Assembly (NCBI GenBank): GCA_017881265.1
Contig: JADGRA010000029.1
Coordinates: 1 to 35,847 of the forward strand
Length of the DNA: 35,847 bases
Direction of reading: 5' to 3'
Origin: Myxococcaceae bacterium
Lineage (GTDB): Bacteria; Myxococcota; Myxococcia; Myxococcales; Myxococcaceae
Part shown: in pieces, positions 7,323 through 23,614 of the stretch
How positions within the stretch are numbered: the first letter of the stretch is position 1
Layout: each line of letters begins with the position of its first letter
Notes under the pieces: generated by a model
Told to the model about the DNA's origin: nothing
The model's input: only the letters and a program-made list of their open reading frames with translations
The model's database searches: none
Translations under genes and position numbers: made by a program

Positions 7323-8288
7323 TTAGGCGACGGCGTCGGACGGCTCCCGCCCGGACAGGACGGCGTCGACGTTGTCCAGGGCGCGGAAGCCCATGGCCGT
7401 GCGCGTCTCCAGCGTTGCCGTCCCCAGGTGCGGCAACAGAAACACGTTGGGCAGCGTCCGGTAGCCGGGGTGCAGGGCCGGCTCCCCGGCGTACACGTCC
7501 AGCCCCGCGGCGAAGAGGTGGCCGCTCTTGAGGGCGGCCAGCAGCGCCTCGTCGTCCACCAAGTCCCCCCGCGCGGAATTCACCAGCACCGCCCCCTTGG
7601 GCAGCAGCGCCAGGGTGCGGGCGTTGATGAGGTTTCGCGTGGCGGCCGTGGCCGGGGTGTGCAGGGACAGGAAGTTGCTCACCGCCAAGAGGCCTTCCAG
7701 CGTGTCATGGAAGTGCGCGCCTAGCTCCAGCTCGGCCGGAAGCCGCGTGCGGTTGCAGTAGTGGATGTCCACGCCCAAGGGACGGACGCGGGCGGCGAAG
7801 GCCCGGCCGATGCGGCCCATGCCGACAATCCCCAGACGCTTGCCTGCAAACCCCCGCCCCAGCAGCTGGGTGGGGGCCCAGCCCGTCCAGGCGCCCGTGC
7901 GTACCAGCTGCTCTCCCTCGCTGGCGCGCCGGGCGGCCCCCAACAGCAACAGGAGGGCAATGTCCGCGGTGGCCTCCGTCACGACGTCCGGGGTGTTGGT
8001 GACGCGGAGGCCGCGCTCGCGCGCGGCCGGCAAGTCCACGTGGTCCGTCCCGACGGACACCGAGGCGAGCAGGCGCACCCGGGGGCCAAGTCGGGCGATG
8101 AGGGCGCGCGGGAAGCGGTCCGTGATGCAGCAGAGGATGGCGTCGGCGTCGGCGCTGCGGGCCACCATCTCCTCGTCCGACAGTGGCCGGTCCTCGGGGT
8201 TGAAGAGGCCGCGGTAGGTGCGCTGGACGCGCGCCTCCACCGCTTCGGGCAGCCGGCGGGTGAGCAGCACCGAGGGAGCTGTCTTCAT
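7323..8288 (-). CDS. D-isomer-specific 2-hydroxyacid dehydrogenase (glyoxylate/hydroxypyruvate reductase type)
   Basis: A 321-residue NAD(P)H-dependent enzyme that reduces 2-oxoacids to D-2-hydroxyacids. Seen: SVSVGTDHVDLPAARERG and TNTPDVVTEATADIALLL in the catalytic domain, the Rossmann loop LGIVGMGRIGRAFA, and the catalytic triad Arg in NSARGDLVDD, Glu in VYAGEP and His in LLPHLGTAT. This arrangement is typical of glyoxylate/hydroxypyruvate reductases (GhrB/GRHPR-like). It starts at the ATG at 8288 after a purine-rich GGGGAGAGAGGA. It lies 33 bp downstream of the AcuI-type reductase and probably in one operon with it and apt. The exact 2-oxoacid is not determined. Confidence 0.92.
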   Translation of the reverse strand: MKTAPSVLLTRRLPEAVEARVQRTYRGLFNPEDRPLSDEEMVARSADADAILCCITDRFPRALIARLGPRVRLLASVSVGTDHVDLPAARERGLRVTNTPDVVTEATADIALLLLLGAARRASEGEQLVRTGAWTGWAPTQLLGRGFAGKRLGIVGMGRIGRAFAARVRPLGVDIHYCNRTRLPAELELGAHFHDTLEGLLAVSNFLSLHTPATAATRNLINARTLALLPKGAVLVNSARGDLVDDEALLAALKSGHLFAAGLDVYAGEPALHPGYRTLPNVFLLPHLGTATLETRTAMGFRALDNVDAVLSGREPSDAVA

Positions 8289-8321
8289 GGGCCGCGGTCC
8301 TCTCTCCCCCGCCTTTGCGCC

Positions 8322-9314
8322 TCAGGCGTTGACGTCCACCACCACCCTGCCGCGCGTCTTGCCGGCAAGGATGTCGGGGGCGACCTCCAACAGGCGCGTC
8401 ATGGGCACCACCGTGGTGCTGGCGTCCAGCTTCTCCATCGGCAGCAATTCCCCGAGGCGCTTCCAGGCGCGCTCGCGCTGCTCCATCGGCGCCAGCACCG
8501 ACTCGACGCCGAGCAGCTTCACGCCGCGAAGGATGAAGGGGAAGACGCTGGCCGGGAGGTCGGCTCCCCCGGCCAGGCCGCAGGCAGCCACCGCGCCGTA
8601 GTAGGCCGTCTGGCTCAGCACCGTGGCCAGCGTCTGCCCGCCCACCGTGTCGACGCCCGCCCCCCAGCGCTCGGCCCCAAGCGGCGGGCCCTTCTGCGCC
8701 AGCTCGGCGCGGTCGACCAGGCTGGTGGCGCCCAGCGACGTCAGCCAGTCGCGCAGTTCCGGACGCCCGGTGGAGGCGGCCACCTTCTGGCCCAGCGCGG
8801 CCAGCAGGGCGACGGCGACGGAGCCCACCCCACCCCCTGCCCCCGTCACCACCACGTCCCGGCCACTCTTCAGGGCGCCGGCCTCCTCCAGGGCCTGCAC
8901 GCACAGCATGGCGGTGAAGCCGGCCGTGCCGAGGGCCATGGTGCGCTTCAAGTCCAGGCCCGGAGCCAGGTGCTGCAGCAGCGCAGCCCCCAGGCGCGTC
9001 CTCTGGGTGTAGCCGCCCCACAGGGACTCGCCGAGATTCCACCCGGTGGCGAACACCTGCTCGCCCGGGCGGAAGCGCGGCGACGTCGAGGCACGCACGG
9101 TGCCGGCGACGTCAATGCCGGGGACAAGGGGCAGCTTGCGCAGCACCTTGCCCTTGCCGGTGAGGGCCAGTCCGTCCTTGTAGTTGAGGGAGCTGTAGGC
9201 GACGTCCAGCGTCACCTCGCCTGGGGGCAGCACCTCGTCGGTGAGGGACACCAGACTCACCCGGGGACGTCCCTCGGCTTGCTCGGCGTACAGCGCGCGA
9301 AAGGTGTCGGCCAT
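8322..9314 (-). CDS. AcuI/YhdH-type medium-chain quinone-oxidoreductase-like reductase
   Basis: A 330-residue medium-chain dehydrogenase/reductase. The start is the ATG at 9314, 13 nt after the apt stop and preceded by GGGGAG; the upstream in-frame extension overlaps apt and is discarded. Seen: YSSLNYKDGLALTGKGKV, PLVPGIDVAGTV, GYTQRTR, ALGTAGFTAMLCVQALEEAG, the cofactor loop VVTGAGGGVGSVAVALLAALG and CGLAGGADLP. These match the acrylyl-CoA reductase AcuI / YhdH subfamily, which uses NADPH and lacks the catalytic zinc of alcohol dehydrogenases. In other bacteria AcuI detoxifies acryloyl-CoA to propionyl-CoA. That substrate is inferred by family, not shown here. Confidence 0.9.
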   Translation of the reverse strand: MADTFRALYAEQAEGRPRVSLVSLTDEVLPPGEVTLDVAYSSLNYKDGLALTGKGKVLRKLPLVPGIDVAGTVRASTSPRFRPGEQVFATGWNLGESLWGGYTQRTRLGAALLQHLAPGLDLKRTMALGTAGFTAMLCVQALEEAGALKSGRDVVVTGAGGGVGSVAVALLAALGQKVAASTGRPELRDWLTSLGATSLVDRAELAQKGPPLGAERWGAGVDTVGGQTLATVLSQTAYYGAVAACGLAGGADLPASVFPFILRGVKLLGVESVLAPMEQRERAWKRLGELLPMEKLDASTTVVPMTRLLEVAPDILAGKTRGRVVVDVNA

Positions 9315-9327
9315 GGGAGACTCCCCT

Positions 9328-9861
9328 TCAGTCGTAGCGGGTGAAGGCGTACAGGGGCGTCCCCTGCAGCTTGTCGGCGCCCTTGAGAAAGCCCAGCTCC
9401 ACCAGGAAGACAAAAGCGGCCACCGTCGCCCCGGCACGTTCCACCAGCGTGCGGGTGGCCAGGGCGGTGCCCCCGGTGGCGAGCACGTCATCCACCACCA
9501 GCACCCGCTCCCCCTTGGAAAGCGCGTCGGTGTGCAACTCCAGGGCGTCGCGCCCGTATTCCAGCCCGTAGGACTCCCGGTGCGTGGCCCGGGGCAGCTT
9601 GGAGGGCTTGCGCACCGGCACGAATCCACGGCGCAGCGCGTAGGCCAGCGGCGCGGCGAAGATGAAGCCCCGGGCTTCAATGCCCACCACCCGGTCGACG
9701 TCCAGGGTGGCCACCCGGGCCGCCAGGGCGGCGATGACCCCGTGAAACAGCGCGGCGTCGGCCAGCACCGGCGTCACGTCCTTGAAGACAATCCCGGGCT
9801 TGGGGAAGTCCGGGACGTCTCGAATTTTGGCGCGGACGGCTTCGAGCAAGGGGGGGGCCAT
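9328..9861 (-). CDS. apt: Adenine phosphoribosyltransferase
   Basis: Makes AMP from adenine and PRPP in purine salvage, in the cytoplasm. It has 177 residues, normal for Apt. Seen: the N-terminal RDVPDFPKPGIVFKDVTPVL, GIEARGFIFAAPLAYALRRGFVPVRKP with the RKPSKLP loop, YGLEYG, and the PRPP-binding loop VLVVDDVLATGGTA. It is the first gene of a minus-strand cluster with the AcuI-type reductase 13 nt downstream. It is divergent from the E1 alpha gene; the 88-bp gap contains both promoters. Confidence 0.97.
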   Translation of the reverse strand: MAPPLLEAVRAKIRDVPDFPKPGIVFKDVTPVLADAALFHGVIAALAARVATLDVDRVVGIEARGFIFAAPLAYALRRGFVPVRKPSKLPRATHRESYGLEYGRDALELHTDALSKGERVLVVDDVLATGGTALATRTLVERAGATVAAFVFLVELGFLKGADKLQGTPLYAFTRYD

Positions 9862-9874
9862 GGGGATGGGGGCC

Positions 9875-9880
9875 TGTATA
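9875..9880 (-). promoter_or_regulatory. Possible -10 box of apt
   Basis: On the minus strand TATACA (GGGCTATACAGG) ends 13 nt before the apt ATG at 9861. It stands out in a GC-rich stretch. No convincing -35 is present at 17 nt. Confidence 0.35.
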
Positions 9881-9934
9881 GCCCGAGCCGAGGGGGGTGC
9901 GGTGCGACGCGTCGGGTGAAATGCCAGGCACTTC

Positions 9935-9942
9935 TGCTAGAC
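9935..9942 (+). promoter_or_regulatory. Possible extended -10 of the E1 alpha/beta genes
   Basis: TGCTAGAC lies 7 nt before the ATG at 9950 and resembles an extended -10. If used, the mRNA would be almost leaderless, in keeping with the lack of a Shine-Dalgarno sequence. The 10-bp palindrome CGACGCGTCG (9905-9914) lies just upstream and could be an operator. Both are tentative. Confidence 0.25.
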
Positions 9943-9949
9943 GGGGGCC

Positions 9950-10978
9950 ATGAGCGAACGAGGCCCCAGCCGCCCCCGTCCGCAGCTCGTCCGGGCCGAA
10001 GGAGAAGGGCTCGGCATCGACCGCGAGCTGCTGGTGCGCATGCACGAGTTGATGGTCAAGGCGCGCGTCCTCGAGGAGCGCCTCATCCAGATGTACAAGG
10101 CCGGCCACGGCTACTTCTGGATTGGCGGACCCGGGGAGGAGGCCTTCAACGTCCCCTTGGGCCTGCTCATGAAGCGCGGACAGGGTCCGGCCTACGACTA
10201 CCTGCATGGGCATTACCGGCAGTCGGCCACGCTCCTGGCGTTGGGAGAGGAGCCGGTGGGCGCCCTGCGGCAGATGAAGAACACGGCGACCGACCCATAC
10301 TCCGCCGGCCGCAACTTCGCCGGCCACTTCACCAAGCGCGCGTGGAACATCGCCCCCATCACCTCCCCCATTGAAGTCCAGTACGCCATCGCTCCCGGGA
10401 CGGCGATGGCCCAGAAGCGCTTCGGGGGCGACGGCATCACCATCGTCACCGGCGGCGACGCGGGCACGGCCGAGGGGGATTTCGCCAGCTGCCTCGTGTG
10501 GAGCAGCCGCCCCGGCCAGGAGTTGCCCATCCTCATCATCGTCACCAACAACCACTGGGGCATCTCCACGGCGGCCGCGACGCAGCAGGGGGCGAAGAGT
10601 CTCGCCGACCGGGGCAAGGCCTTCGGCATGCGCACGGCCAGCGTCGACGGCAACGACGTGGTGGGGAGCTACCTCGCGCTGAAGGAAGCGTTCGGCTACG
10701 TCCGCAGCGAGCGCAAGCCGTTTCTCATGGAGGCCATGGTGAGCCGCCTCTACGGGCACTCGAGCGCCTCGGGCGCCAACCCCGTTCCGGGCGAGGTGGA
10801 CTGCATCGCCACCTTCGAGGAGCAGCTCGAGAAGGGCGGCATCCTCAATCGTGCCGCCATGGTGCAGGTGCGCGAGCGCTGGACGAAGGAGATTGGAGAG
10901 GCCGCCCGCCGGGTGCGGGACGAGCCGATGCCCGCGCCGGAGAGCATCTGGAACAACATCTACAAGGAACGGTCCTAA
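9950..10978 (+). CDS. 2-oxoacid dehydrogenase E1 component, alpha subunit
   Basis: A 342-residue thiamine-diphosphate subunit that, with the beta subunit, decarboxylates a 2-oxoacid (branched-chain 2-oxoacid or pyruvate type) and passes the acyl group to E2 lipoamide. Seen: LLVRMHELMVKARVLEERL, GYFWIGGPGEEAFNVPLG, YDYLHGHYRQSATLLALG, and the TPP/Mg motif GGDAGTAEGDF with the downstream NN in IVTNNHWGIS, followed by AFGMRTASVDGNDV. The family resembles branched-chain 2-oxoacid dehydrogenase E1 alpha. The beta subunit follows 4 nt later. E2 and E3 are not nearby, so they must be encoded elsewhere. Substrate specificity is inferred. Confidence 0.93.
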   Translation: MSERGPSRPRPQLVRAEGEGLGIDRELLVRMHELMVKARVLEERLIQMYKAGHGYFWIGGPGEEAFNVPLGLLMKRGQGPAYDYLHGHYRQSATLLALGEEPVGALRQMKNTATDPYSAGRNFAGHFTKRAWNIAPITSPIEVQYAIAPGTAMAQKRFGGDGITIVTGGDAGTAEGDFASCLVWSSRPGQELPILIIVTNNHWGISTAAATQQGAKSLADRGKAFGMRTASVDGNDVVGSYLALKEAFGYVRSERKPFLMEAMVSRLYGHSSASGANPVPGEVDCIATFEEQLEKGGILNRAAMVQVRERWTKEIGEAARRVRDEPMPAPESIWNNIYKERS

Positions 10979-10982
10979 CCCC

Positions 10983-12038
10983 ATGGCCAACATGGCACAG
11001 GCCGTCCGGATGGCGCTCCACTACGCGGAGGAGAACCTCGGCGTCACCGACGTCTTCGGCGAGGACGTCGGCCCCCCGCTGGGCGGCGTCTTCACCGCCA
11101 CCCAGGGGTTGAAGACGGCGTGGAACAGTCCGCTGGACGAGCGCGGCATCATCGGCGTGGCGATGGGACTGGCCATGGCCGGCCAGCGACCGGTGGCCGA
11201 AATCCAGTTCTGCGACTACATCTACAACACCATTGACTTGCTCAAAATCGCCGGCAACACCTGCTGGTGCACCAATGGCGACTGGAACCTGCCGATGGTG
11301 GTGAAGACGCCGGTCGGCAGCGGCATCCGCGGCAGCATCTACCACTCGCACAGCTTCGACGCGACGGCCACCCACATCCCGGGCTGGAAGATTGTCATGC
11401 CGAGTACGCCGCTAGACGCCTACGGGCTCATGCTCTCGGCCTGCCAGGACGACAACCCCGTCCTCTTCCTTGAACCGAAAGCCCTCCTGCGCATCAAGGG
11501 GGACGAGCCCATCCCCGGCGAGCCAGCCGACGAGCGGGCGCTCTCCAAGATGATTGACGCTCCTTTGGGTGACCGGTCGGCCTGGAAGCCGGACTGGCCG
11601 GCGCTCGAGCCGTACTTCGTCCCCATCGGCAAGGCGCGGCTGGTCCGGGAAGGCACCACCCTCAGCGTCGTCAGCTACGGCCGCATGTTGCCCTTGTGCG
11701 TCCGGGCGGCAGCAGCCCTGGCGGAGACCGGCATCCGCGCCGAGGTCATCGACCTCCGCTCGCTCTGGCCTTACGACTGGGAGGCCATCCGCGACTCGGT
11801 GGAGAAGACGGGGAAAGTCCTTTTCGTCAACGAGGACACCGAGGTCACCAACTTCGGCGAGCACCTGCTGCGGCGCACGGTGGAGGAACTTTTCTACCGG
11901 CTGCTGGCTCCGCCGCGCCTCCTCGCCGGGAAATTCGTGCCCGGCATTGGGCTGGCCGACCCCCTGGAAGCCGCCTCCGTCCCGCAGCTGTCGGACATCA
12001 CCGAGGCCATCCGTTCCCTGGCCGCCGAGCAGGCCTGA
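10983..12038 (+). CDS. 2-oxoacid dehydrogenase E1 component, beta subunit
   Basis: A 351-residue partner of the E1 alpha subunit. It carries the pyrimidine-binding domain and the C-terminal transketolase domain. Seen: VFGEDVGPPLGGVFTATQGL, the conserved Glu-containing DERGIIGVAMGLAMAGQRPV, AEIQFCDYIYNTIDLL, VVKTPVGSGIRGSIYHSHS, and the C-terminal VSYGRMLPLCV, EVIDLRSLWPYDW and VNEDTEVTNFGEHL. The start is the ATG at 10983; an upstream in-frame extension lies inside E1 alpha. The 4-nt spacing implies one operon and probably coupled translation. Confidence 0.93.
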   Translation: MANMAQAVRMALHYAEENLGVTDVFGEDVGPPLGGVFTATQGLKTAWNSPLDERGIIGVAMGLAMAGQRPVAEIQFCDYIYNTIDLLKIAGNTCWCTNGDWNLPMVVKTPVGSGIRGSIYHSHSFDATATHIPGWKIVMPSTPLDAYGLMLSACQDDNPVLFLEPKALLRIKGDEPIPGEPADERALSKMIDAPLGDRSAWKPDWPALEPYFVPIGKARLVREGTTLSVVSYGRMLPLCVRAAAALAETGIRAEVIDLRSLWPYDWEAIRDSVEKTGKVLFVNEDTEVTNFGEHLLRRTVEELFYRLLAPPRLLAGKFVPGIGLADPLEAASVPQLSDITEAIRSLAAEQA

Positions 12039-12110
12039 CCCTGTCCTAAGGCCAAGCAGCCGGCCCCCCCCCGGGCGGAAGGCCCCGTGTGACGGTCGAG
12101 CGACGGCCCC

Positions 12111-12132
12111 CGCCCCGGCCTCCGGCGTTTTT
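12111..12132 (+). terminator. Terminator of the E1 alpha/beta operon
   Basis: CGCC-CCGGCCTCC-GGCG is followed by TTTTT, 73 nt after the E1 beta stop. The stem is short, but the T run is rare in this GC-rich sequence and in the right place. Confidence 0.45.
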
Positions 12133-12353
12133 CTTTGCGGGCCGCCGACCCGGCTGTCAGGATTGGCACTGCCCTACGGGGCGAGAGGAGGTGATGCCTT
12201 GAACCACGACCATCAAGGCGCCACCTCTCCGGGCGCGGCGTAGCCAGAGGTTCCGCGGCTTCGGAGGCGGCGCAAAGGCTGTGCACCCGCCGCCCGGTGG
12301 CTGGAGGCGCAGTGTCTGGCCATCGGGCAGGCGGGTGTTTTTTGTCCTCCCGC
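12133..12353. other. Gene-free part of the convergent intergenic region
   Basis: The space between the E1 beta stop (12038) and the MATE stop (12356) is 315 bp. Apart from the plus-strand terminator candidate I see no gene with plausible coding character. AGGCGGG (12329-12335) and CCCGCCT (12349-12355) form a 7-bp inverted repeat around a T-rich 13-nt loop at the end of the MATE gene. It could end MATE transcription, but no T run follows it on the minus strand. Confidence 0.4.
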
Positions 12354-13772
12354 CTACACGTAGCGCAGCTTCCAGCGACCGGTCCGGAACACCAGCGCCC
12401 CGGCCACCGCCACGCTGCAGAAGGCCGCCAAAAGGGCGAAGAAGGCCCCCAGGGGACCCAGCCCTAGCCCGTGGGAGAGGACCCAGGCCAGCGGCAGCTC
12501 CAGCACCCAGAAGCAGGCGAAGTTGATGAGGGTGGGCGTCCAGGTGTCCCCCGCACCGTTGAGTGCCTGCGTCATCACCATGCCCAGCCCGTAGAAGGCA
12601 AAGCCCAGGGACACCACGCGCAAGCAGTTGACCCCGAAGCCCACCACCGCCGCGTCGGTGCTGAAGAGGTGAATCAGCCCCGGGGCGAAGGCCAGCAGCA
12701 AAAGGCCGACGCCGAGGAGGAAGCCCGAATTGAAGCCGGCGGCCAGCCAGACGCTGCGCTCGGCGCGCTCGGGCTTCTTGGCCCCGAGGTTCTGCCCCAC
12801 CAGCGTCGCCGCGGCCGTGGCCAAGCCGTAGGAGGGCAACAGGGCGAAGGTGACAATCCGGATGGCGACGGTGTACCCGGCCACGGCGTTGCTGCCGAAG
12901 CCTGAGATGATGCGCACCATGCCCACCCAGCTCGCCATGCCCACCAGCATCTGCAGCGTCGCCGAGCCGGACAGCCGCAGCACCTGCAGGATGGTCTTCC
13001 ACTCGATGTGGAGGTGGCGGCGCTGCAGGCGGATGCGCCCGCCCGGCCGGGACAGCAGCCACAGCTGGTAGGCTACGCCGGTCGTTCTGCCGAGGGTGGT
13101 GGCGACGGCGGCCCCCACCACGCCCAGCCGCGGGAAGGGCCCGAGGCCGAGCACCAGGCAGGGAGCGAGGATGCAGTTGAGGCCGTTGGCCAGCCACAGC
13201 ACGCGCATCGCCACTGCCGCGTCCCCGGCCCCGCGAAAGATGGCGTTGATGAGGAAGAGCAGGGTGATGCTGAGGGTGCTGCCCATCATCACCTGCATGT
13301 AGGGGACGCCATGCGACAGCACCCAGGGGCTTCCCCCCATCAGCCCCAGCAGTCGCCGGGCGAAGGCAATCCCGGTGGCGGCCACCGGCAGCGCCAGCAG
13401 GACCCCCAGGACGATGGCCTGGACGGCCGTCCGCGACGCGCGCTCCGCGTCCTTCTCCCCCACCCTGCGGGCGATGAGCGCCATCGCGCCGATGGCCACC
13501 CCCATGGCGACGGCGTACACCAGCGTGAGCAAGGATTCCGTCAGCCCCACGGTGGCCACGGCGTCGGGCCCCAGCCGCGAGACGACGAAGACGTCCACCA
13601 CCGCGAACACCGACTCCATGCCGAACTCGAGCACCATGGGCACCGCGAGAACGAAGATGGCCCGCGGGATGGAACCCGCGGTGAAGTCGCGGTGCGAGCC
13701 GCGGAGGGCCTCGCGCAGGGCGCTCCACAGCCCCTGGGCGGGTGCCGCCGGCGCTGGGGTGAAGGCGTCCAT
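12354..13772 (-). CDS. MATE family multidrug/metabolite exporter
   Basis: A 472-residue inner-membrane protein with about 12 predicted TM helices in two MatE halves. It is expected to export organic cations, drugs or metabolites in exchange for Na+ or H+. Seen: FVLAVPMVLEFGMESVFAVVDVFVVSRLG in the first helices, GVAIGAMALIARRVGEKD (the conserved loop), LINAIFRGAGDAAVAMR, and in the second half VGMASWVGMVRIISGFGSNAVAGYTVAIRI, AAATLVGQNLGAKKPERAERSVW and MTQALNGAGDTWTP. The paired RGAGD and NGAGDT motifs are characteristic of the two halves. The start at 13772 is preceded by GGAGAGGGG. It is 36 bp downstream of the flavin reductase gene, probably in one operon. The substrate is unknown. Confidence 0.93.
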   Translation of the reverse strand: MDAFTPAPAAPAQGLWSALREALRGSHRDFTAGSIPRAIFVLAVPMVLEFGMESVFAVVDVFVVSRLGPDAVATVGLTESLLTLVYAVAMGVAIGAMALIARRVGEKDAERASRTAVQAIVLGVLLALPVAATGIAFARRLLGLMGGSPWVLSHGVPYMQVMMGSTLSITLLFLINAIFRGAGDAAVAMRVLWLANGLNCILAPCLVLGLGPFPRLGVVGAAVATTLGRTTGVAYQLWLLSRPGGRIRLQRRHLHIEWKTILQVLRLSGSATLQMLVGMASWVGMVRIISGFGSNAVAGYTVAIRIVTFALLPSYGLATAAATLVGQNLGAKKPERAERSVWLAAGFNSGFLLGVGLLLLAFAPGLIHLFSTDAAVVGFGVNCLRVVSLGFAFYGLGMVMTQALNGAGDTWTPTLINFACFWVLELPLAWVLSHGLGLGPLGAFFALLAAFCSVAVAGALVFRTGRWKLRYV

Positions 13773-13808
13773 GGTGCCCCTCTCCGGGCGGCGCGGGCGG
13801 CGGATTGC

Positions 13809-14336
13809 CTAGTCCAGGGGGCCGACGCGGGCATGCCCGCGGTGCTGGTAGACGAGTGTCCGGTGCGTGTCCCCTTGGTGAATGGCCGTGACCTCGCCGA
13901 TGACGAGGATGTGGTCCCCGACGTCGATGCGGTCGCGCACCCGCGCCGAGAAGGCCCCGGCCGTCCCCTGCAGCAACGGGACGCCGGCAGCATCCTCCTC
14001 GGCCGGAAAGCGTTCCCAGGTGTCCGTCCGGTGCTCCCAGTGGCGGGCGAAGGCCAGGCTGTGCTCGGCCTGCGCCTCGGAGAGGAAGTTGACCGCGAAG
14101 CAGTCCGCGTCAGCCAGCAGCGCTGCGGAGCCGGCGCCCCGTTCCACCGCCACCGCGATGAGGGGCGGGTCAATGCTCAGCATGACGAAGGCGGTAGCGG
14201 TGAAGCCGTCGGTGCGGGGGGCGCCCGGCCCGCCTGCACCCTGGCGCCGCCGGGCGGTGACCACGGTGACGGTGGCCGCCCATGTCCGGGCCAGCCGTCG
14301 GAAGGCCTCGGCGTCGCCTGGCGGAAAGGATTGCAT
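13809..14336 (-). CDS. Flavin reductase-like FMN-binding split-barrel protein
   Basis: A 175-residue protein of the flavin reductase domain family (Flavin_Reduct, FMN-binding split barrel). Such proteins supply reduced FMN/FAD to two-component monooxygenases or act as oxidoreductases. Seen: TWAATVTVVTARR at the start, DGFTATAFVMLSIDPPLIAVAV (flavin-binding core), FAVNFLSEAQ and DHILVIGEVTAIH near the end. The usual length is about 160-190 residues. No monooxygenase partner is adjacent. It is divergent from a fumarylacetoacetate-hydrolase gene, which would fit aromatic hydroxylation and ring cleavage, but that link is inferred. The MATE exporter follows in the same direction. Confidence 0.85.
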   Translation of the reverse strand: MQSFPPGDAEAFRRLARTWAATVTVVTARRRQGAGGPGAPRTDGFTATAFVMLSIDPPLIAVAVERGAGSAALLADADCFAVNFLSEAQAEHSLAFARHWEHRTDTWERFPAEEDAAGVPLLQGTAGAFSARVRDRIDVGDHILVIGEVTAIHQGDTHRTLVYQHRGHARVGPLD

Positions 14337-14342
14337 GCCCCG

Positions 14343-14361
14343 GGTTCTCTAGGTCAGAACC
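14343..14361. promoter_or_regulatory. Candidate operator between the flavin reductase and FAH-family genes
   Basis: GGTTCT-CTAGGTC-AGAACC is a perfect 6-bp inverted repeat with a 7-nt spacer, centred in the 59-bp divergent region and only 6 nt from the flavin reductase start at 14336. The size and symmetry fit a dimeric repressor or activator site. It is less GC-rich than its surroundings, so chance is less likely than for the GC palindromes elsewhere. Confidence 0.4.
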
Positions 14362-14371
14362 GCCCTTCGCA

Positions 14372-14384
14372 CCACTCGAAGTGG
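14372..14384. promoter_or_regulatory. Second inverted repeat in the same divergent promoter
   Basis: CCACT-CGA-AGTGG is a perfect 5-bp inverted repeat just before the GGAGGG ribosome binding site of the FAH-family gene. Binding here could block transcription or translation of that gene. It is short and tentative. Confidence 0.3.
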
Positions 14385-14395
14385 AGGGTTGAAGC

Positions 14396-15253
14396 ATGAG
14401 GCTCGTCTCCTACCGACGGGGCGCCGTGGACAGCTTCGGCGTGGTGGTCGATGCCGGCGTGGTGGACGGCCGCCGCCTCCTCGGCGGCCGCGTTGCCACC
14501 CTCAAGGCAGCCCTGGCGGCCGGTGCACTTCCGGAGCTCGCCCGGGCCGCCCTGGGGGCGACGCCCGACGTCCGCCTGGATGCGGTCCAGCTTCTCCCGC
14601 CCATTCCGGAGCCGGACAAAATCCTCTGCGTCGGCATCAACTACGTCGCCCACCGCGAGGAGACCGGACGCGGCGAGAGTGCCCACCCGACCCTCTTCAC
14701 CCGCTTCGCCAACACCCAGGTGGGCCATGGCCAGGCCCTGGTGCGCCCCCGGGTCTCCACCGAATTCGATTACGAGGCCGAGCTGGCCGTCGTCATCGGC
14801 CGGCGGTGTCGCCACGTGCGACGCGAGGACGCCCTGGCTTGCGTCGCCGGGTACAGCTGCTACCAGGATGCGACGCTGCGGGACTGGCAACGGCACACCA
14901 GCCAATTCACCGCGGGGAAGAATTTCGTCGCCACGGGGGGGTTTGGGCCGTGGCTGGTGACCACGGACGAAGTGGCCGACCCCTCCCGATTGACTGTGGT
15001 GGGCCGTCTGAATGGCCAGGAGATGCAGCGCTCGGCCACGGACCTGCTCATCTTCGACATCCCGGAACTCATCGCCTACATCACCACCTTCACGGAACTC
15101 GTCCCCGGCGACGTCCTCTCGACTGGGACGCCCGGTGGCGTCGGCAGCAAACGCACCCCCCCGGTGTGGCTGAAGCCCGGGGACGTCTTCGAGGTGGAAG
15201 TGACTGGGGTGGGCGTGCTCCGCAACCCCGTGGTGGAGGAGCAGGCCGCCTGA
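14396..15253 (+). CDS. Fumarylacetoacetate hydrolase family protein
   Basis: A 285-residue FAH-superfamily enzyme. Members hydrolyse, hydrate or decarboxylate 2-oxo acids such as fumarylpyruvate, acylpyruvates or 2-keto-4-pentenoates in aromatic catabolism. Seen: the N-terminal cap region MRLVSYRRGAVDSFGVV, DKILCVGINYVAHREETG, the metal-binding FDYEAELAVVIGRRC, GYSCYQDATLRDWQRHTSQF, AGKNFVATGGFGPWLVTTDE, and LVPGDVLSTGTPGGVGSKR near the end. The metal ligands (Glu pair in YEAEL and a downstream Asp in YQDATLRD) are present. The start ATG follows GGAGGG by 7 nt. It is divergent from the flavin reductase and ends in a strong hairpin. The exact substrate is not determined. Confidence 0.9.
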   Translation: MRLVSYRRGAVDSFGVVVDAGVVDGRRLLGGRVATLKAALAAGALPELARAALGATPDVRLDAVQLLPPIPEPDKILCVGINYVAHREETGRGESAHPTLFTRFANTQVGHGQALVRPRVSTEFDYEAELAVVIGRRCRHVRREDALACVAGYSCYQDATLRDWQRHTSQFTAGKNFVATGGFGPWLVTTDEVADPSRLTVVGRLNGQEMQRSATDLLIFDIPELIAYITTFTELVPGDVLSTGTPGGVGSKRTPPVWLKPGDVFEVEVTGVGVLRNPVVEEQAA

Positions 15254-15256
15254 AAG

Positions 15257-15289
15257 GGCCCGCGGCCCTTGCGGCTGGGGCCGCGGGCC
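15257..15289 (+). terminator. Strong hairpin after the FAH-family gene
   Basis: A perfect 12-bp G/C stem (15257-15268 with 15278-15289) around a 9-nt loop, starting 4 nt after the stop codon. No T run follows, so it is either a stem-only terminator or an mRNA 3-prime stabiliser. It is the longest perfect inverted repeat noticed in the window. Confidence 0.55.
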
Positions 15290-15445
15290 GTGGAGGAGAC
15301 GCTCCTACCCAGCCGCCCCGGAGGGGGTTTTCCCACAGGGTCGCGCCGGACCAGCCGGCCGGGACTGCACCCCCCTCTCCAAGGGGAGACATTCTGGACT
15401 TCTCGGGACTTAGCTAGCGGATCGCCCCTTGCAAACCCACAGGTT

Positions 15446-16222
15446 GTGAACAACCGCGTGGTCCTCATCGGCGCTGAGCAGGACTTCTTCCTCGACCTCT
15501 TGGAGATGCTTGTCCCAGGCGGTGCCTGCGACCCGTTGACGTCTCTGGACGAGGTGGCGCCTGGCCAGGTGCCGCCACCCCCGACCGGCCCCTTCGAGGT
15601 CTGGTTCATCGGCAGTGACGTGGACGGCCTGAACGAAGTTCGCCGGATGCGCGCCCTGGGAGAACCCCCCGCGGTGGCCTTCCTCAACGTGTGCGGCGTG
15701 GAAGACAACGTGCTGTTTCACGCGGACCGCCTGCTGTCCGAGGACCCCCGCCTGCAGGTGGTGCTCGTCGTGCCGGCCAACCACGAGGACTGGGAAGCCA
15801 GCGCCACCGCCCTCGGACACCGGGACCAGGTGGTGGTGCTAAAGCGGCCGTTTGACGGCATTGAAGCCCGCGAGCTCGCCCACCAGCTGGTGGAGCGCTG
15901 GAACCAGTTCGACCGGGTCCTGGCGCGCCTGCCGCTGCCGCTGCACGTGGCCGAGCCCGTCAAGCCGGTCACCTTGGGCGGTGGCTCCGACAACCGGGTG
16001 GCCGTGCTGAAGGACGCCTTCCGTGCCATCCGCGCCCTGGTCGACGCCTTGTCCGCCCGCTGTTCGGAGCTCGAGTCCCACGCGGCCCGTGCCAACGAGT
16101 TGGAGGAGGCCGGAAATACCTTCGAGGTGGTGGCGCGTGCGCTGGCCGGCCTCCGACGGATGGAGTCGCTGGTGGAGCGCGACGGCAGTCCGGTCGACTT
16201 GCGCAGGCTTCCTCAAGCCTGA
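15446..16222 (+). CDS. Degenerate receiver-domain (pseudo-receiver) protein with a C-terminal helical tail
   Basis: A 258-residue protein from the GTG at 15446; the in-frame stretch upstream has no convincing start. Residues of about 1-150 align by eye with the receiver domain of myxobacterial hybrid histidine kinases, including LQVVLVVPANHEDWEASATALG and the typical end VVVLKRPFDGIEARELA with the conserved Lys-Pro (Lys at about 133). The phospho-acceptor position is Asn81 in VAFLNVCGVE where active homologues have Asp, and the N-terminal acidic pair is reduced to GAEQD. It should therefore not be phosphorylated normally. Residues of about 185-245 are predicted to be a helical coiled coil (ALSARCSELESHAARANELE). 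No kinase domain is present. It may be a phosphorylation-independent partner protein. Confidence 0.7.
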   Translation: MNNRVVLIGAEQDFFLDLLEMLVPGGACDPLTSLDEVAPGQVPPPPTGPFEVWFIGSDVDGLNEVRRMRALGEPPAVAFLNVCGVEDNVLFHADRLLSEDPRLQVVLVVPANHEDWEASATALGHRDQVVVLKRPFDGIEARELAHQLVERWNQFDRVLARLPLPLHVAEPVKPVTLGGGSDNRVAVLKDAFRAIRALVDALSARCSELESHAARANELEEAGNTFEVVARALAGLRRMESLVERDGSPVDLRRLPQA

Positions 16223-16252
16223 GCCGTCCTGGTTGGCCCTATGGCCTCTTCC

Positions 16253-17275
16253 TCACTTCGTGGCGGGAAGTGTGTCGGTGAAGACGAGAAGCTTTCCGGC
16301 CTTTGGGTCACAGACGTAGGCGTGGCCGACGTCGTCCGCCGCGACGCAGTGGGCGTCGGCGGCAGTCAGCACGGTGGCCAGGGCCTGTAGGCTTCCATCC
16401 GGCTTCACCCCGAGGATGGCCATGGTGGCGGTGTCGCCACCGGGCACGTAGAGGTGGGCCAGGCTTGGGCTGTAGGCCAGAATGTCGACTCCCTTGCCGC
16501 TCGTGTCCAGCGAGCCGACGATGCGGCCCGAGTGAGTCACATCCAGGACGGTGGCCTTGCCCTCCTCGCAGCCGGCGAAGAGCAGGCCGCGCGCCTCGTC
16601 CAGGGCGCTGCCGCGGGCGCCCACGCAGCCGTTTGACCAGTGGGCGACGTCCTTGTGCCCCTGAAGGTCGAGGGCCACCGTGGTGCTGTGCCAGGTGTGG
16701 GTGTAGGCGCGACCGCGCGTTCCATCGATGACCAGCGACTCGGGTCCGTCCGCAATGGGGATGGTGCCCTGAGACACCAGCGCCGGGACCCCGCTGCCAT
16801 CCAGCTTGAAGTACTCGATGACTTTGCGGGCCGGCTCGGTGACCCAGACCTCGGAGGTGGCGTCCACCCAGCGCACGTAGTCTGGCGCTCCCCCAAGTTT
16901 GGCCGAGGCGAGGATGCGCAGCCGGACGGGGTCGACGATGTCGACGGTTTTGCGGCTGCGGTCGGACGCAAACACCAGGCCGTGCCCCGAGTCCGCCGAC
17001 GTGGTGCCGGCGGCGTGGCCACCGCCAAAGCCTGCCTGCGTGCTGAAGCCGTTGACGGATTCGATGGCCAACGTCTTCGGGTCAATCAGGTTGAGCAGCC
17101 CGGTCCGTCCCGAAGGGACCAGCACGCGCTTCAACGCGGGCGAAAACTGCAGGTCGTCGAAGCCGATGCCTCCGTGCCCGTGGGGCAGGAACAGCAGCGT
17201 CAGGGAGGAGGCGGCGACGGCCGCAAGCGGAACGGCAACTGCAGCTGCAAGAAGAAACTTCGCGACACGTCGCAT
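16253..17275 (-). CDS. Exported YncE-like beta-propeller protein
   Basis: A 340-residue protein with an N-terminal signal peptide or anchor (MRRVAKFLLAAAVAVPLAAVAA). The rest consists of repeated blades resembling YncE / cytochrome cd1-type beta-propellers: LNLIDPKTLAIESV, GLVFASDRSRKTVDIVDP, APDYVRWVDATSEVWVTEP, GPESLVIDGTRGRAYTHTW, SALDEARGLLFAGCEEGKATVLDV, VDILAYSPSLAHLYVPGGD and AYVCDPKAGKLLVF. No catalytic or haem-binding motif is visible. Such propellers act in the periplasm as binding or scaffold proteins. Its ligand is unknown. It converges with the pseudo-receiver gene. Confidence 0.8.
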   Translation of the reverse strand: MRRVAKFLLAAAVAVPLAAVAASSLTLLFLPHGHGGIGFDDLQFSPALKRVLVPSGRTGLLNLIDPKTLAIESVNGFSTQAGFGGGHAAGTTSADSGHGLVFASDRSRKTVDIVDPVRLRILASAKLGGAPDYVRWVDATSEVWVTEPARKVIEYFKLDGSGVPALVSQGTIPIADGPESLVIDGTRGRAYTHTWHSTTVALDLQGHKDVAHWSNGCVGARGSALDEARGLLFAGCEEGKATVLDVTHSGRIVGSLDTSGKGVDILAYSPSLAHLYVPGGDTATMAILGVKPDGSLQALATVLTAADAHCVAADDVGHAYVCDPKAGKLLVFTDTLPATK

Positions 17276-18288: not shown

Positions 18289-18966
18289 ATGTGCGGCCGC
18301 TTCACGACACGACTGACGCCGGCGGAATTGATTGAGGCCTTCGGGCTGGCCGGTACCGACGTGCCCCTGGCACAGGCCCTCCCTCTCCGCTTCAACGTGG
18401 CCCCCCGGCAGCCTGTGCCGGTCGTCACCAACCAGGCCCCTCGCCTCCTCCAGGCATTTCGCTGGGGACTCGTCCCCTGGTGGGCCAAGGACCTTCGCGC
18501 TGGCGACCACCTCATCAACGCGCGCCTCGAATCACTGGGCCAGCGCCGCGCCTTCGCCAGCGGGGAGCGGCACCGCTGTCTGGTGCTGGCCGACGGCTTC
18601 TACGAGTGGAAGCGCGAGGGCGCCCGCAAGCGGCCCTTCTTCTTCGAATTGCCCGGCAGCGCCCCGTTCGCCTTCGCCGGCCTGTGGGACCGCTGGCACT
18701 CCCCCTCCGGGGAGACGGTGCACTCCTGCGTGCTGCTCACCCAGCCGGCGGTGGGGGAAGTGGCAGCCGTGCACGAGCGGATGCCGGTGGTGCTTCCGAA
18801 GCGGCTGTACGCTGAATGGCTAGCCCCCGGCGCCGTGCCGCTCTCCGCCTGGCGAGAGCCGCTGGGCAGCCTGGCGCCCCCCTTTGCCCCCCGGCCGGTC
18901 TCCACCTACGTCAATGCGGCCGCCCACGAAGGCCCGGAGTGCCTGTTGCCACCGCCGCCCGGTTGA
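18289..18966 (+). CDS. SRAP (SOS response-associated peptidase) family protein, YedK/HMCES-like
   Basis: A 225-residue protein that forms a covalent DNA-protein crosslink with abasic sites in single-stranded DNA, shielding them during replication, as known for E. coli YedK and human HMCES. All key residues are visible: catalytic Cys2 in MCGRF, Asn36 in RFNVAPRQP, Glu106 in LADGFYEWK and His162 in VHERMPVVL. Other conserved blocks are FRWGLVPWWAKD and INARLES. The initiator Met must be removed to expose Cys2. It has the normal length. The Lhr helicase gene starts 40 bp downstream on the same strand, so co-expression is likely. Confidence 0.95.
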   Translation: MCGRFTTRLTPAELIEAFGLAGTDVPLAQALPLRFNVAPRQPVPVVTNQAPRLLQAFRWGLVPWWAKDLRAGDHLINARLESLGQRRAFASGERHRCLVLADGFYEWKREGARKRPFFFELPGSAPFAFAGLWDRWHSPSGETVHSCVLLTQPAVGEVAAVHERMPVVLPKRLYAEWLAPGAVPLSAWREPLGSLAPPFAPRPVSTYVNAAAHEGPECLLPPPPG

Positions 18967-19006
18967 GAGCCCCCGCCCGCAGGGGGCATTACAGTCCTCA
19001 GACGCC

Positions 19007-22000
19007 ATGGCTGCCACCGCTGACGCCCTCGCCCACTTCCAGCCCGCGGTGCGGGACTGGTTCCGGGCATCGTTTGCCGGACCCACCGACGCACAGCGGT
19101 TCGGCTGGCCGGTGCTGGCCCGCCGAGAGTCGGCGCTCCTTTTGGCCCCCACCGGAAGTGGCAAGACGCTGGCCGCCTTCCTCAGCTGCATCGACCGGCT
19201 GATGTTTGCGCCGCTCCCTCCCCGCACGGAGCGCTGCCGCGTCCTCTACATCTCCCCACTGAAAGCCCTGGCGGTTGACGTGGAAAAGAATCTCCGCGTC
19301 CCCTTGGCCGGCATCGCCAACGTCGCGGCCGGCCGGGGCGATGCCCACCGCTTCCCCTCCATCAGCGTGCGCACCGGGGACACGCCGGCCTCGGCCCGGG
19401 CTCGCTTCCGCCGCGAGCCAGCCGACATCCTCATCACCACGCCCGAGTCGCTCTACTTGCTGTTGACGTCGCTGGCCAGAGACGCCCTGCGCAGCGTGGA
19501 CACCGTCATCATCGACGAGATTCACGCCCTCGTCCCCACCAAGCGGGGTGCCCACCTGCTGCTCAGTCTCGAGCGGCTGGAGGCCCTCGCCGGCCGCCCG
19601 CTCCAGCGCATTGGCCTCTCCGCCACGCAGCGCCCGCTGGAGGAGGTGGCCCGCTTCCTCGGGGGGGCCGTTGCCGGTGCGCCCAGCCCCGGACATGCAG
19701 TGCTGCCGCCGCTCGCGGAGGGCGCGGTGGACGCGGCCGAGGTGCGGAGCGAATTTGCCAGCGGCTGGGAGACAGCTCCCGTCTGGCGGCCCGTTACCAT
19801 CATCGACGCGGGGTCGCGCAAGGCGCTCTCCTTGCGCATTGAAGTGCCCGTCGAGGACATGGCCCGCCTGGCCCCACCGGAGGTGCGGGGAGGGCCGTCG
19901 TCCCCGCGGCCTGCCGGGGCCTCCATCTGGAGCGCCATTCACCCGCGCCTGCTGGAGTTGGTGCGCTCGCACACCTCCACGCTGGTTTTCGTCAACAGCC
20001 GCCGCACGGCGGAGCGCCTGGCAGCGGCCCTCAATGAATTGGCCGGGGAGACGCTGGTCCGGGCGCACCACGGCTCCCTGGCCCGGGCGCAGCGCCAGGA
20101 GATTGAAGAGGCGCTGAAAGCGGGAAGTCTCCGCGGGCTGGTGGCCACCAGTTCGCTCGAGCTGGGCATCGACATGGGGGCCATCGACCTGGTGGTGCAG
20201 GTGGAGGCGCCGCCCAGCGTGGCCGCCGGCTTGCAGCGCATCGGTCGCGCCGGCCACCAGCTGGGGGCGGCGAGCTCGGGCGTCCTGTTTCCAAAATACC
20301 GAGCGGACTTGGTGGCCTGTGCGGCGCTCACCCGCGCCATGCATGCCGGCGAGGTGGAGTCCATCCGTTACGCGCGCAACCCGCTCGACGTCCTCGCCCA
20401 GCAGCTGGTGGCGATGGCGGCGGTGGACGTCTGGGACGTGGACGCGCTGTTTGCGCGCGTCCGGGGCGCGGCGCCGTTCGTGGAGTTGTCGCGGCCCATC
20501 TTCGACGCTGTGCTGGACATGCTGGCCGGCCGTTATGCCTCGGAGGCGTTCGCGGACCTCCGGCCACGCCTCACCTGGGACCGCGTGGCGAATACCGTCA
20601 CCGCGCGGGAAGGCAGCCAGCGCATCGCCATCGCCAACGGCGGCACCATCCCGGACCGCGGGCTGTACGGTGTCTTCCTCGCCGGTGGCGCCCAGGGACA
20701 CGCGCGGGTGGGCGAGCTCGACGAGGAGATGGTCTTCGAGAGCAAACCCGGGGAGACCTTCCTCCTCGGCGCCTCCAGCTGGCGGATTGAGGAAATCACC
20801 CACGACCGGGTCCTCGTCTCGCCCGCGCCAGGGCAGCCGGGGAAGATGCCCTTCTGGCACGGGGACGCGGCGGCGCGGCCGCTCGAGACGGGTCAGGCCA
20901 TCGGGGCGCTGGTGCGCGAGCTGTTGAGTGTGCCCCCGCCGGTGGCTCGCGCGCGCCTCACTCAGCAGCACGACCTGGACGCGCTGGCGGCGGACAACCT
21001 CCTCCGCTATCTCGAGGACCAGCGCGCCGCCACGCAGGTCGTCCCTGACGACACGACGCTGGTCATCGAGCGGACGCGGGATGAGTTGGGCGACTGGCGC
21101 GTCTGCGTGCTCTCCCCCCTCGGGGGACGCGTCCATGCCCCCTGGGCGATGGCCATTTCTGCCCGGGTGCGACAGCGGACCGGGCTGGACGTGGAGACCA
21201 CCTGGACCAATGACGGGATTGTCGTGCGCTTCCCGGAGTCGGAGGTCCCTCCGGACACGGCTTGGCTTCTGCCCGCGGCGGACGAGGTGGAGGCCCTGGT
21301 GCTGGGCGAGCTCGGCGGGACGTCGCTGTTTGCTGCGCGTTTCCGCGAGGTGGCCGGCCGGGCCCTGCTGCTGCCCAGGAGGCGGGCCGGGGCGCGCATG
21401 CCGTTGTGGGCGCAACGCAAGCGAGCCACGGATTTACTCGCCGTGGCCTCCCGCTTCGGCAGCTTTCCCATGCTGCTCGAGACGTACCGGGAATGTCTGC
21501 GCGACGTCTTCGACATGCCGGCGCTGGTGGCGACGCTGCGGGCGGTGGGCGAGCAGCGGATGTCCGTCCGGACCGCCGACACCGCCACGCCATCCCCCTT
21601 TGCGGCCTCGCTGCTCTTCGGCTTCGTCGCCAACTTCATCTACGACGGGGATGCGCCCGTGGCCGAGCGGCGGGCGCAGGCGCTCAGCGTGGACCAGTCC
21701 CAGCTACGCGAGTTGCTGGGGGAGACGGAGCTCCGCGAACTCCTCGACGCGGAGGCCATGGCCCAGCTGGAGGCGGAGTTGCAACGCACCGACGTGCGCG
21801 CCCGGGCGCGCACCGCCGACGCCGTGCACGACCTGCTTTTGCGCCTGGGCGACTTGACGCGAAGCGAGCTTGCCGAGCGCTGCGCCTCCGAGGAAGTCAC
21901 GGCCAGCGTGGACGCGCTGGTGGCCGAGCGGCGCGCGGTGCCGCTTCGGCTGCAGGCCGAGACGCGCTACGTGGCGGTGGAGGACGCGGTGCGCTTTCGC

Positions 22001-23614
22001 GACGGGCTGGGCATCCCGCTGCCCGAGACGCTGCCTGCCGCCCTGCTGGTCCCCGTCCGGGAGCCACTCCGGGAGCTGGTGGCCCGTTACGCGCGCACCC
22101 ATGGGCCCTTCACCCTCCAGGCGCTGTGCAGCCGCTTCGGACTTTCCCCGCCTGCTGCCCGGGCCGTCCTGGGCGCGCTTGCGGCCGGCGGCGGGCTTCT
22201 GGAAGGCGCCTTCCGGCCCGGCGGGACGCAGCGGGAGTGGTGTGACGCCTCGGTGCTGTCCACGCTGCGCCAGCGCTCGCTGGCCCGGCTGCGCCACGCG
22301 GTGGAACCGGTGGAGCCCCGGACGCTGGGGCGGCTGCTGTGCAGCTGGCACGGCGTCCTGCGGCCGAGGCCCGGCCTGGACGCCATTCTGGACGCGGTGG
22401 AGCGCCTGCAGGGGTGCCCGCTTCCCGCCTCGGTGCTGGAGGCGGACGTGCTGCCGGCGCGCGTGGCGCACTACCAGCCGGGGGACTTGGACACGCTGGC
22501 GGCGGCCGGCGAGGTGGTGTGGGTGGGCGTGGAGTCCTTGGGCGAGCGGGATGGCCGGCTCGCCCTCTACCTGACGGACGCGTTGCCCCGCCTTCTACCC
22601 CCGGGGCAGGCAGCGCCCCCGGCTGAGACGCTAACCGATCGCGAGCGCGCCATCCTGTCCTACCTGGGGGGTGCCGGCGCTTCCTTCTTTGCCACCCTCC
22701 ACCAGGGCGTGGGTGGCGGCTTTGCGCGGCCCACCGTGGGCGCGTTGTGGAGCCTCGTCTGGAAGGGCCTCGTCACCAACGACACCTTCCGCGCTCTGCG
22801 TGCATTCCTGGCGCCGCCGGCGGAGGCCCGGGGCCGGCGCAGCGCCCGGGCCGTCCCGGCCTACCGCAGCCGCCGGGCGGCGCCGCCCGCGGCGGAAGGG
22901 CGCTGGTCGCTTTTGCCCGAGCGCCTCGCCCAGTCCCCGACGGAGTGGAGCATGGCCGAGGCCCAGCAGCTGCTCAGCCGGTATGGCCTGGTGACGCGGG
23001 CCATGGCGCAGGCCGAAGGGCTGCCCGGGGGCTTCAGCGCCGTGTACGACGTCTTCAAAGCCCTCGAGGAGAGTGGCCGCATCCGCCGCGGCTACTTCGT
23101 CTCGGGCGTGAGCGCGACGCAGTTTGTCCTCCCCCCCGTGGTGGACCTCCTCCGTTCGCTGCGCCAGCCGCCGGAGGTGCCGGAGGTGGTGTGCCTGGCT
23201 GCCACCGACCCGGCCAACCCCTACGGCGCGCTGCTACCGTGGAGCGAGCCGGGCGCCGCGCCTGCCCGCGCGGCCCGCGCCGTGGGCGCGCACGTGGTGC
23301 TGGTGGACGGGGCTCTCGCGGCGTGGATGGGCCGGGGAGGGCGACAAAGCTGGGTGTGGCTCCCCGACGCCGAGCCAGACAGGGGCCGCATGGCACATGC
23401 GGTGGCGCAGCAGTTCGCGGCCCTCGGACACGCGGCGCAGGCCGAACGGCACGGGGGCCTGGTGCTGGAGGAGGTGAACGGGGGCCCGGCCGAGCAGCAC
23501 CCGCTGGCGCTTTTCCTTACCGAGGCGGGCTTCGTCCCCTCCTCGTTGGGCTTTCACCTGCGGCGGCCGCGCCCGACGCTGTACGGGCTGCTGGCCCCCA
23601 AGGACGACAGCTAG
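19007..23614 (+). CDS. lhr: Lhr-family ATP-dependent DNA helicase, full length
   Basis: A 1535-residue superfamily 2 helicase, close to the usual Lhr length (about 1500). The ATG at 19007 is chosen because MAATADALAHFQPAVRDWF is the normal Lhr N-terminus; the longer in-frame extension overlaps the SRAP gene. Seen: Q-like TDAQRFGWPVL, Walker A APTGSGKT (about 47-54), DEIH box (about 170-173), IGLSATQRP, and the motif V/VI region ATSSLELGIDMGAIDLVVQ with LQRIGRAGH (about 409-417). The Lhr-specific winged-helix and core domains follow to about residue 850, then the large Lhr C-terminal region of about 680 residues (GVGGGFARPTVGALWSLVWKGL). Lhr tracks 3-prime to 5-prime on ssDNA and unwinds RNA:DNA hybrids. 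It is linked to DNA damage repair in mycobacteria. Confidence 0.95.
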   Translation: MAATADALAHFQPAVRDWFRASFAGPTDAQRFGWPVLARRESALLLAPTGSGKTLAAFLSCIDRLMFAPLPPRTERCRVLYISPLKALAVDVEKNLRVPLAGIANVAAGRGDAHRFPSISVRTGDTPASARARFRREPADILITTPESLYLLLTSLARDALRSVDTVIIDEIHALVPTKRGAHLLLSLERLEALAGRPLQRIGLSATQRPLEEVARFLGGAVAGAPSPGHAVLPPLAEGAVDAAEVRSEFASGWETAPVWRPVTIIDAGSRKALSLRIEVPVEDMARLAPPEVRGGPSSPRPAGASIWSAIHPRLLELVRSHTSTLVFVNSRRTAERLAAALNELAGETLVRAHHGSLARAQRQEIEEALKAGSLRGLVATSSLELGIDMGAIDLVVQVEAPPSVAAGLQRIGRAGHQLGAASSGVLFPKYRADLVACAALTRAMHAGEVESIRYARNPLDVLAQQLVAMAAVDVWDVDALFARVRGAAPFVELSRPIFDAVLDMLAGRYASEAFADLRPRLTWDRVANTVTAREGSQRIAIANGGTIPDRGLYGVFLAGGAQGHARVGELDEEMVFESKPGETFLLGASSWRIEEITHDRVLVSPAPGQPGKMPFWHGDAAARPLETGQAIGALVRELLSVPPPVARARLTQQHDLDALAADNLLRYLEDQRAATQVVPDDTTLVIERTRDELGDWRVCVLSPLGGRVHAPWAMAISARVRQRTGLDVETTWTNDGIVVRFPESEVPPDTAWLLPAADEVEALVLGELGGTSLFAARFREVAGRALLLPRRRAGARMPLWAQRKRATDLLAVASRFGSFPMLLETYRECLRDVFDMPALVATLRAVGEQRMSVRTADTATPSPFAASLLFGFVANFIYDGDAPVAERRAQALSVDQSQLRELLGETELRELLDAEAMAQLEAELQRTDVRARARTADAVHDLLLRLGDLTRSELAERCASEEVTASVDALVAERRAVPLRLQAETRYVAVEDAVRFRDGLGIPLPETLPAALLVPVREPLRELVARYARTHGPFTLQALCSRFGLSPPAARAVLGALAAGGGLLEGAFRPGGTQREWCDASVLSTLRQRSLARLRHAVEPVEPRTLGRLLCSWHGVLRPRPGLDAILDAVERLQGCPLPASVLEADVLPARVAHYQPGDLDTLAAAGEVVWVGVESLGERDGRLALYLTDALPRLLPPGQAAPPAETLTDRERAILSYLGGAGASFFATLHQGVGGGFARPTVGALWSLVWKGLVTNDTFRALRAFLAPPAEARGRRSARAVPAYRSRRAAPPAAEGRWSLLPERLAQSPTEWSMAEAQQLLSRYGLVTRAMAQAEGLPGGFSAVYDVFKALEESGRIRRGYFVSGVSATQFVLPPVVDLLRSLRQPPEVPEVVCLAATDPANPYGALLPWSEPGAAPARAARAVGAHVVLVDGALAAWMGRGGRQSWVWLPDAEPDRGRMAHAVAQQFAALGHAAQAERHGGLVLEEVNGGPAEQHPLALFLTEAGFVPSSLGFHLRRPRPTLYGLLAPKDDS

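Follow-up and report, generated by a model that had tools for sequence, protein, structure and literature searches.

The window analysed here is the whole stretch of 35,847 nucleotides from a Myxococcaceae metagenome assembly, and the open reading frame (ORF) under study lies near its middle (Table 1). GC content at its codon positions 1/2/3 (0.775/0.422/0.876) is coding-like, its start position and reading frame are kept in the alignment with both orthologues and, as far as sequence can tell, the ORF is a genuine gene. The HisKA and HATPase_c domains that follow the receiver in a hybrid histidine kinase are absent, the ORF ending at residue 258 with no Pfam match, in agreement with the initial annotation, which had described 15446-16222 as a frame without an attached kinase.

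Upstream of the gene, the order of MatE, a flavin reductase frame and FAA hydrolase is common to the window and to the two genomes that carry orthologues (G006 and G026). The block conserved with these genomes (7326-15250) holds genes for a 2-hydroxyacid dehydrogenase, a zinc-binding alcohol dehydrogenase, a phosphoribosyltransferase and E1 dehydrogenase subunits, followed by MatE, flavin reductase and FAA hydrolase. On the other side, a 340-aa ORF on the minus strand (16253-17275) is convergent with the gene; it has no Pfam match at E 0.001, and by eye we take it to resemble a YncE-type beta-propeller. Further downstream, 18884-23614 (+) encodes an Lhr-type helicase of 1576 aa, in which Pfam recognises Lhr winged-helix domains. 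The helicase is matched in part by a stretch downstream of the G006 orthologue, and the G026 contig stops short of there. Genes for COX1, for COX2 with cytochrome c and for NrfD form a respiratory cluster (28263-35802, minus strand) and are interspersed with large ORFs that Pfam leaves unmatched. No histidine kinase or receiver appeared among the Pfam matches of the 29 other window ORFs, a set that includes several opposite-strand overlaps which do not represent genes. The protein thus has the look of an orphan.

In an alignment of the three upstream regions, the best-kept block just before the start codon was GGATCG-N4-TTGCA-N-AC. Its GGATCG-N4-TTGCA portion ends 12 to 14 bases before the GTG in the window and in the orthologous loci (L059 and L060, just upstream of base 6001). 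Sigma-54 promoters have a GG-N10-GC spacing, which the element fits, and it is possibly a promoter of this type. The pattern GGNNCGNNNNTTGCA occurs once in the window compared with 0.63 occurrences expected, which is not significant for the window taken by itself. A search of 15250-16320 for sigma-70-like sites gave no match. If the element is a sigma-54 promoter, the transcript would begin almost at the start codon (i.e., leaderless).

Table 1 Features of the pseudo-receiver gene (window coordinates) and positions of its receiver relatives (coordinates of the respective loci).
Feature	Position	Strand	Basis
Pseudo-receiver gene	15446..16222	+	GTG 15446 to TGA 16222, 258 aa
Candidate sigma-54 type -24/-12 element, GGATCG-N4-TTGCA	15419..15433	+	kept in all three orthologues
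Receiver-fold domain, residues 1-160	15446..15925	+	AlphaFold2 element order, PDB fold matches, tblastn
G9-A10 at metal-binding Asp-Asp pair	15470..15475	+	D-D in 39/39 relatives, G-T in both orthologues
Asn81 (AAC) at phospho-acceptor column	15686..15688	+	Asp in 39/39 relatives and 2/2 orthologues (GAT)
Val109 at Ser/Thr column	15770..15772	+	relatives Ser 35/39, Thr 4/39; orthologues Ser, Ala
Residues 123-138, LGHRDQVVVLKRPFDG, α4-β5 loop, β5 and β5-α5 turn	15812..15859	+	16/16 identical in three orthologues
Arg134 at catalytic Lys column	15845..15847	+	K in 39/39 relatives; R in both orthologues
Predicted helical tail, residues 184-245	15995..16180	+	AlphaFold2 helix, low confidence
Cys206	16061..16063	+	alignment; lone cysteine kept in 3/3, invariant in three orthologues
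Relatives of the receiver subfamily	L005 1501-2343; L013 1312-2499; L037 1501-2823; L024 1483-1983		

Two orthologues were identified, in G006 and G026 (E <1e-65; 52-53% identity in the alignment), and their ORFs are open and similar in length to the window copy. Matches to the window protein at E ≤0.001 were found in 13 of the 60 genomes of the relatives set (its own genome being among the 60). Across 96 Myxococcaceae genomes, matches above 100 bits were confined to the three carriers, the next best reaching 84 bits, and neither the order set (145 genomes) nor the overlapping phylum set (195 genomes) added further orthologues. Genome contigs were also scanned with patterns, a limited number of candidates being scored per genome: the protein pattern gave no further orthologue, and the profile pattern returned two Myxococcaceae MAG loci, which we take to be the known pair, and none beyond. 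In its own genome (4.4 Mb, 81 contigs, 95.7% complete) no second copy was found, the sole other match at E ≤1 scoring 17 bits. The protein has a narrow distribution, i.e., three Myxococcaceae metagenome assemblies from two genera. Where it is measurable, namely between the two orthologues, the gene is under purifying selection by the NG86 estimates (dN 0.104, dS 0.546, ratio ~0.19). Between the window copy and the orthologues dN was 0.43 and dS 0.77-0.84, the latter probably near saturation. The family sample consists of three sequences, two of them close to each other.

All other matches of the window protein were to receiver domains in other ORFs (~27-36% identity, best tblastn E 8e-21), and PF00072 was present in all four of those that were scanned with Pfam, joined to HisKA and HATPase_c in one, to GGDEF in another and to STAS in a third, and without a partner domain in the fourth. 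The closest relatives found are N-terminal receivers of myxobacterial HisKA hybrid kinases together with GGDEF and STAS versions; they share with the window protein a long α1-β2 loop, an LxKPFD-like end of β5 and W at 116 and 152. Among Myxococcaceae relatives, this one receiver subfamily with the long loop occurs fused to STAS, GGDEF or HisKA-HATPase_c and also stands alone. Pfam at E ≤10 returned no family for the window protein, for its first 167 residues or for both orthologues, and NCBIfam returned none for the window protein. The PF00072 Response_reg gathering score was missed by all three proteins. As judged by homology, the window protein is a diverged receiver relative that lies outside Pfam-called PF00072 membership, and further groups outside PF00072 are named in a 2025 review of pseudo-receivers (PMC12632262).

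The predicted structure agrees with this homology. AlphaFold2, run on the three orthologues with a three-row alignment, gave a model of low confidence (mean pLDDT 51.7) with strands at 3-8, 50-55, 77-81, 104-110 and 129-134 and helices at 12-22, (30-36), 61-70, 86-99, 116-122, 139-160 and 184-245. The element order, E H (H) E H E H E H E H, is that of a (βα)5 fold. Foldseek recovered 10 PDB matches at E ≤0.001, of which nine were response regulators or CheY-like by title, and in VIA-align 2 (best Z 12.4, rmsd 3.5 over 125 residues) receivers stood in the top rows. Confidence was low as well for a second model, built from a single orthologue with no alignment, and Foldseek gave no match at E ≤0.001 for it, with receivers still leading. 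A profile search against PDB sequences returned three matches at E ≤1, none of them a receiver, and was left out as evidence. The model is weak, yet fold and homology agree that the window protein is a diverged receiver domain. The receiver fold proposed in the initial annotation is upheld, and a structure prediction without such a fold, which it had named as grounds against its own reading, is not what was obtained. In a tree of 42 receiver rows the three orthologues formed one branch (3.1 changes per column, support 100/100), and because of the long branches a sister canonical receiver could not be assigned.

To characterise the former active site, we used 39 canonical receiver rows, with columns aligned to the window protein. 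The rows derive from 52 matching ORFs (two being the orthologues) in loci fetched from the relatives and family searches; dropping identical extracts left 41 rows, and only part of the family-search match sites contributed loci. These relatives keep D-D, D, S/T and K (39/39 per column), whereas the window copy has replaced all five conserved residues, with G9, A10, N81, V109 and R134 standing for D, D, D, S/T and K. Two of these losses are common to all three orthologous proteins: GA or GT stands in place of the metal-binding DD, and RP in place of the KP that holds the catalytic Lys. The acidic pair, which had been described as weakened, is altered as claimed, but this understates the change, both Asp being gone (G9-A10 in the window, G9-T10 in the orthologues). 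The reported Lys133-Pro proved to be a misreading: the residues are L132-K133-R134-P135, the relatives have R, K or H at column 133, and their Lys before Pro sits at column 134. Given the Arg at column 134, the catalytic Lys is lost in all three proteins. The change at the Ser/Thr column (V109), found here, had not been mentioned previously. Of the residues R-M-P-P-G that form the β3-α3 turn in the relatives, the window copy retains none and the orthologues a single Pro.

The acceptor column itself tells a different story from the one first proposed. The residue is Asn as stated, but Asn81 is private to the window genome and, with Asp in both orthologues, fails as a marker on the very test that the initial annotation had set for it. 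The orthologue at L059 keeps both the Asp and the Ser of the acceptor and Ser/Thr columns. With Asp at column 81 in 2/2 orthologues, Asn81 is a late change in a single lineage, and Asn81 and Val109 would together represent the late completion of the loss in the window lineage rather than its founding event. By parsimony from the three sequences, we infer that the metal pair and the Lys were lost before the three split and that the acceptor Asp went last. An acceptor column without Asp, which defines Asp-less receivers (ALRs), is found in the window copy and in neither orthologue. Pseudo-receivers (PsRs), as the 2025 review has it, are computationally recognisable as receivers, miss key phosphotransfer residues and carry out no phosphotransfer (PMC12632262). 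The window protein is recognisable by homology and fold and misses these residues; judged by these two features in alignment and model, it is a pseudo-receiver.

Conservation within residues 1-160 (90 identical across all three proteins) is uneven. Residues 123-145 are identical at 21 of 23 positions compared with 69 of 137 elsewhere in the domain (Fisher p 0.0002), and residues 79-99, which span the strand and loop of the former acceptor together with helix 3, are identical at only 5 of 21, below the rest of the domain (Fisher p 0.002); both segments were picked after viewing the alignment, so these p-values err on the optimistic side. At 129-137 the relatives, too, show fair conservation. 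Since working relatives are rather conserved across the same stretch, the conservation of 123-138 may be structural, i.e., partly related to the fold.

Beyond a variable stretch (residues 161-183), the tail is identical at 28 of 62 positions in the three orthologues (184-245). It had been described as a coiled coil. The helix is predicted, with low pLDDT, and a coiled coil is unproven, Leu/Ile/Val/Met/Phe filling at most 44% of a/d positions in any heptad register. We also considered the tail as a remnant of the HisKA dimerisation region and rejected this: hhalign of the three tails against 30 post-receiver stretches gave P ~0.07, and the tail profile against ORFs of the fetched loci gave a best non-orthologue E of 0.0097 and a best single stretch at E 0.06. 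Weak tail matches (E 4e-4 to 7e-3) occurred in 4 of the 96 family genomes besides the three carriers. The best of the four was inspected; it is a short stretch inside a membrane protein (presumably DsbD-like) and was taken as chance, and no convincing tail relative was found in these 96 genomes outside the three orthologues. The same subfamily occurs with GGDEF, with STAS or alone, and the tail shows no HisKA trace; with long branches and no assignable sister receiver, a hybrid-kinase origin specifically is unsupported.

The nearest working precedent that we can name is FrzS of Myxococcus xanthus, which we liken to the window protein by its published description (PMC1974792). Both have a myxobacterial N-terminal receiver fold, an unusable phosphorylation site, a helical C-terminus (predicted for the window protein) and no kinase. 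The FrzS family is further marked by dynamic polar localisation. In FrzS, Ala53 occupies the Asp site and Ser10 the metal site, and Thr is missing (PMC1974792). The two differ in that FrzS has a tail in addition to its 258-residue coiled coil, and a Tyr as switch residue (PMC1974792), whereas the window protein has a predicted tail helix of ~60 residues with a weak heptad pattern and Val at column K-3. FrzS was not among the best 50 fold-search matches listed, which excludes nothing. Among the papers that one literature library listed for pseudo-receivers in myxobacteria and for pseudo-receiver domains with FrzS (FrzS papers, the 2025 review and one Clostridioides paper), we found no description of the present protein family.

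We consider it fairly probable that the protein is a pseudo-receiver adaptor that works independently of phosphorylation, analogous to FrzS (PMC1974792, PMC12632262, PMC11580455). We favour this because of the receiver homology and fold, the loss of DD and K in 3/3 proteins, the invariant 123-138 next to a less conserved 79-99, purifying selection, shared synteny and the FrzS precedent. Asp phosphorylation would be unable to switch such a protein. The receiver fold would have been retained to serve as a constitutive docking module, most likely with the conserved α4-β5-α5 side as its contact face, and the C-terminal helix would oligomerise or anchor it. Activity would then depend on the amount of protein (possibly through sigma-54 dependent transcription) or on whether partners are available, as for FrzS and SgmX in Myxococcus. 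The initial annotation had already proposed a receiver turned phosphorylation-independent scaffold. Its first half stands, and on stronger grounds than Asn81, since a stand-alone protein lacks the phosphorylation residues and the metal pair and Lys are missing in 3/3; a scaffold or regulator role is what we infer from this. Overall that annotation is partly supported: the pseudo-receiver was correctly spotted, the key residue was misjudged and one residue was misread. Several points count against the adaptor: the model is of low confidence, the sample is small (three sequences, two of them close) and the conservation of 123-138 may be structural. In addition, FrzS binds SgmX through its α3-β4-α4 surface (PMC12632262), which differs from the best-conserved side here, and the Asp kept in two orthologues is odd if the pocket is irrelevant.

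That retained Asp is also an argument for a weakened rather than dead switch, in which the acceptor would still be used in an unusual manner (metal-free phosphorylation, or Asn81 deamidating to Asp). One orthologue has Ser at the Ser/Thr column as well, and Asn at the acceptor position of a receiver can revert to Asp, as reported by Maule et al. (PMC4395418), who list Asn as the second most common acceptor replacement in the ALR class. Nonetheless, with the metal-binding pair and the Lys missing in 3/3 and the R-M-P-P-G turn absent from the window copy and reduced to one Pro in the orthologues, we regard such a switch as unlikely. Control might instead reside in the tail, with a disulfide or oxidation at Cys206 governing self-association in the manner of the RitR linker cysteine. 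RitR is an Asn-type ALR (PMC4395418) that forms dimers once its linker residue Cys128 is oxidised (PMC5965902), and Cys206 is the sole cysteine conserved in 3/3. However, one conserved Cys in three sequences is a weak sign, and this one lies within a conserved helical stretch where it may serve packing. RitR resembles the window copy in the Asn at its acceptor site and differs in that the orthologues have Asp and no DNA-binding domain is attached (none matched with Pfam); we hold a redox-switched dimer to be quite unlikely.

It is also conceivable that the gene has been decaying since the loss of a kinase and has no present function, as the absence of all five active-site residues in the window copy and the occurrence in 3 of 96 family genomes could suggest. 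Against this stand frames that are open and similar in length across three genomes, the dN/dS of ~0.19 between orthologues, the conserved upstream element and the invariant 123-138, and we give decay little credence. More ambitious, and improbable in our estimate, is a new family of pseudo-receivers with tail-controlled output (through Cys206 redox or tail-driven assembly), a constitutive α4-β5-α5 docking face and a phospho-Asp that was lost last. If this were true, the stepwise death of a switch could be read from three genomes.

Under the adaptor reading that we prefer, the find is a modest one: dead switches are a kind already known, and what is new is a narrowly distributed member. PsRs account for ~6% of the bacterial receivers in a representative set, and their activation and inactivation is called a "mystery" in the 2025 review (PMC12632262). 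To this the family adds intermediates, in which the acceptor Asp was kept after the metal site and the Lys had gone. These suggest that the Asp was the last to go and that Asp or Asn, taken by itself, marks a working receiver poorly. Calling pseudo-receivers from nothing but the acceptor residue would overlook two of the three proteins, and all three escape recognition as receivers by Pfam.
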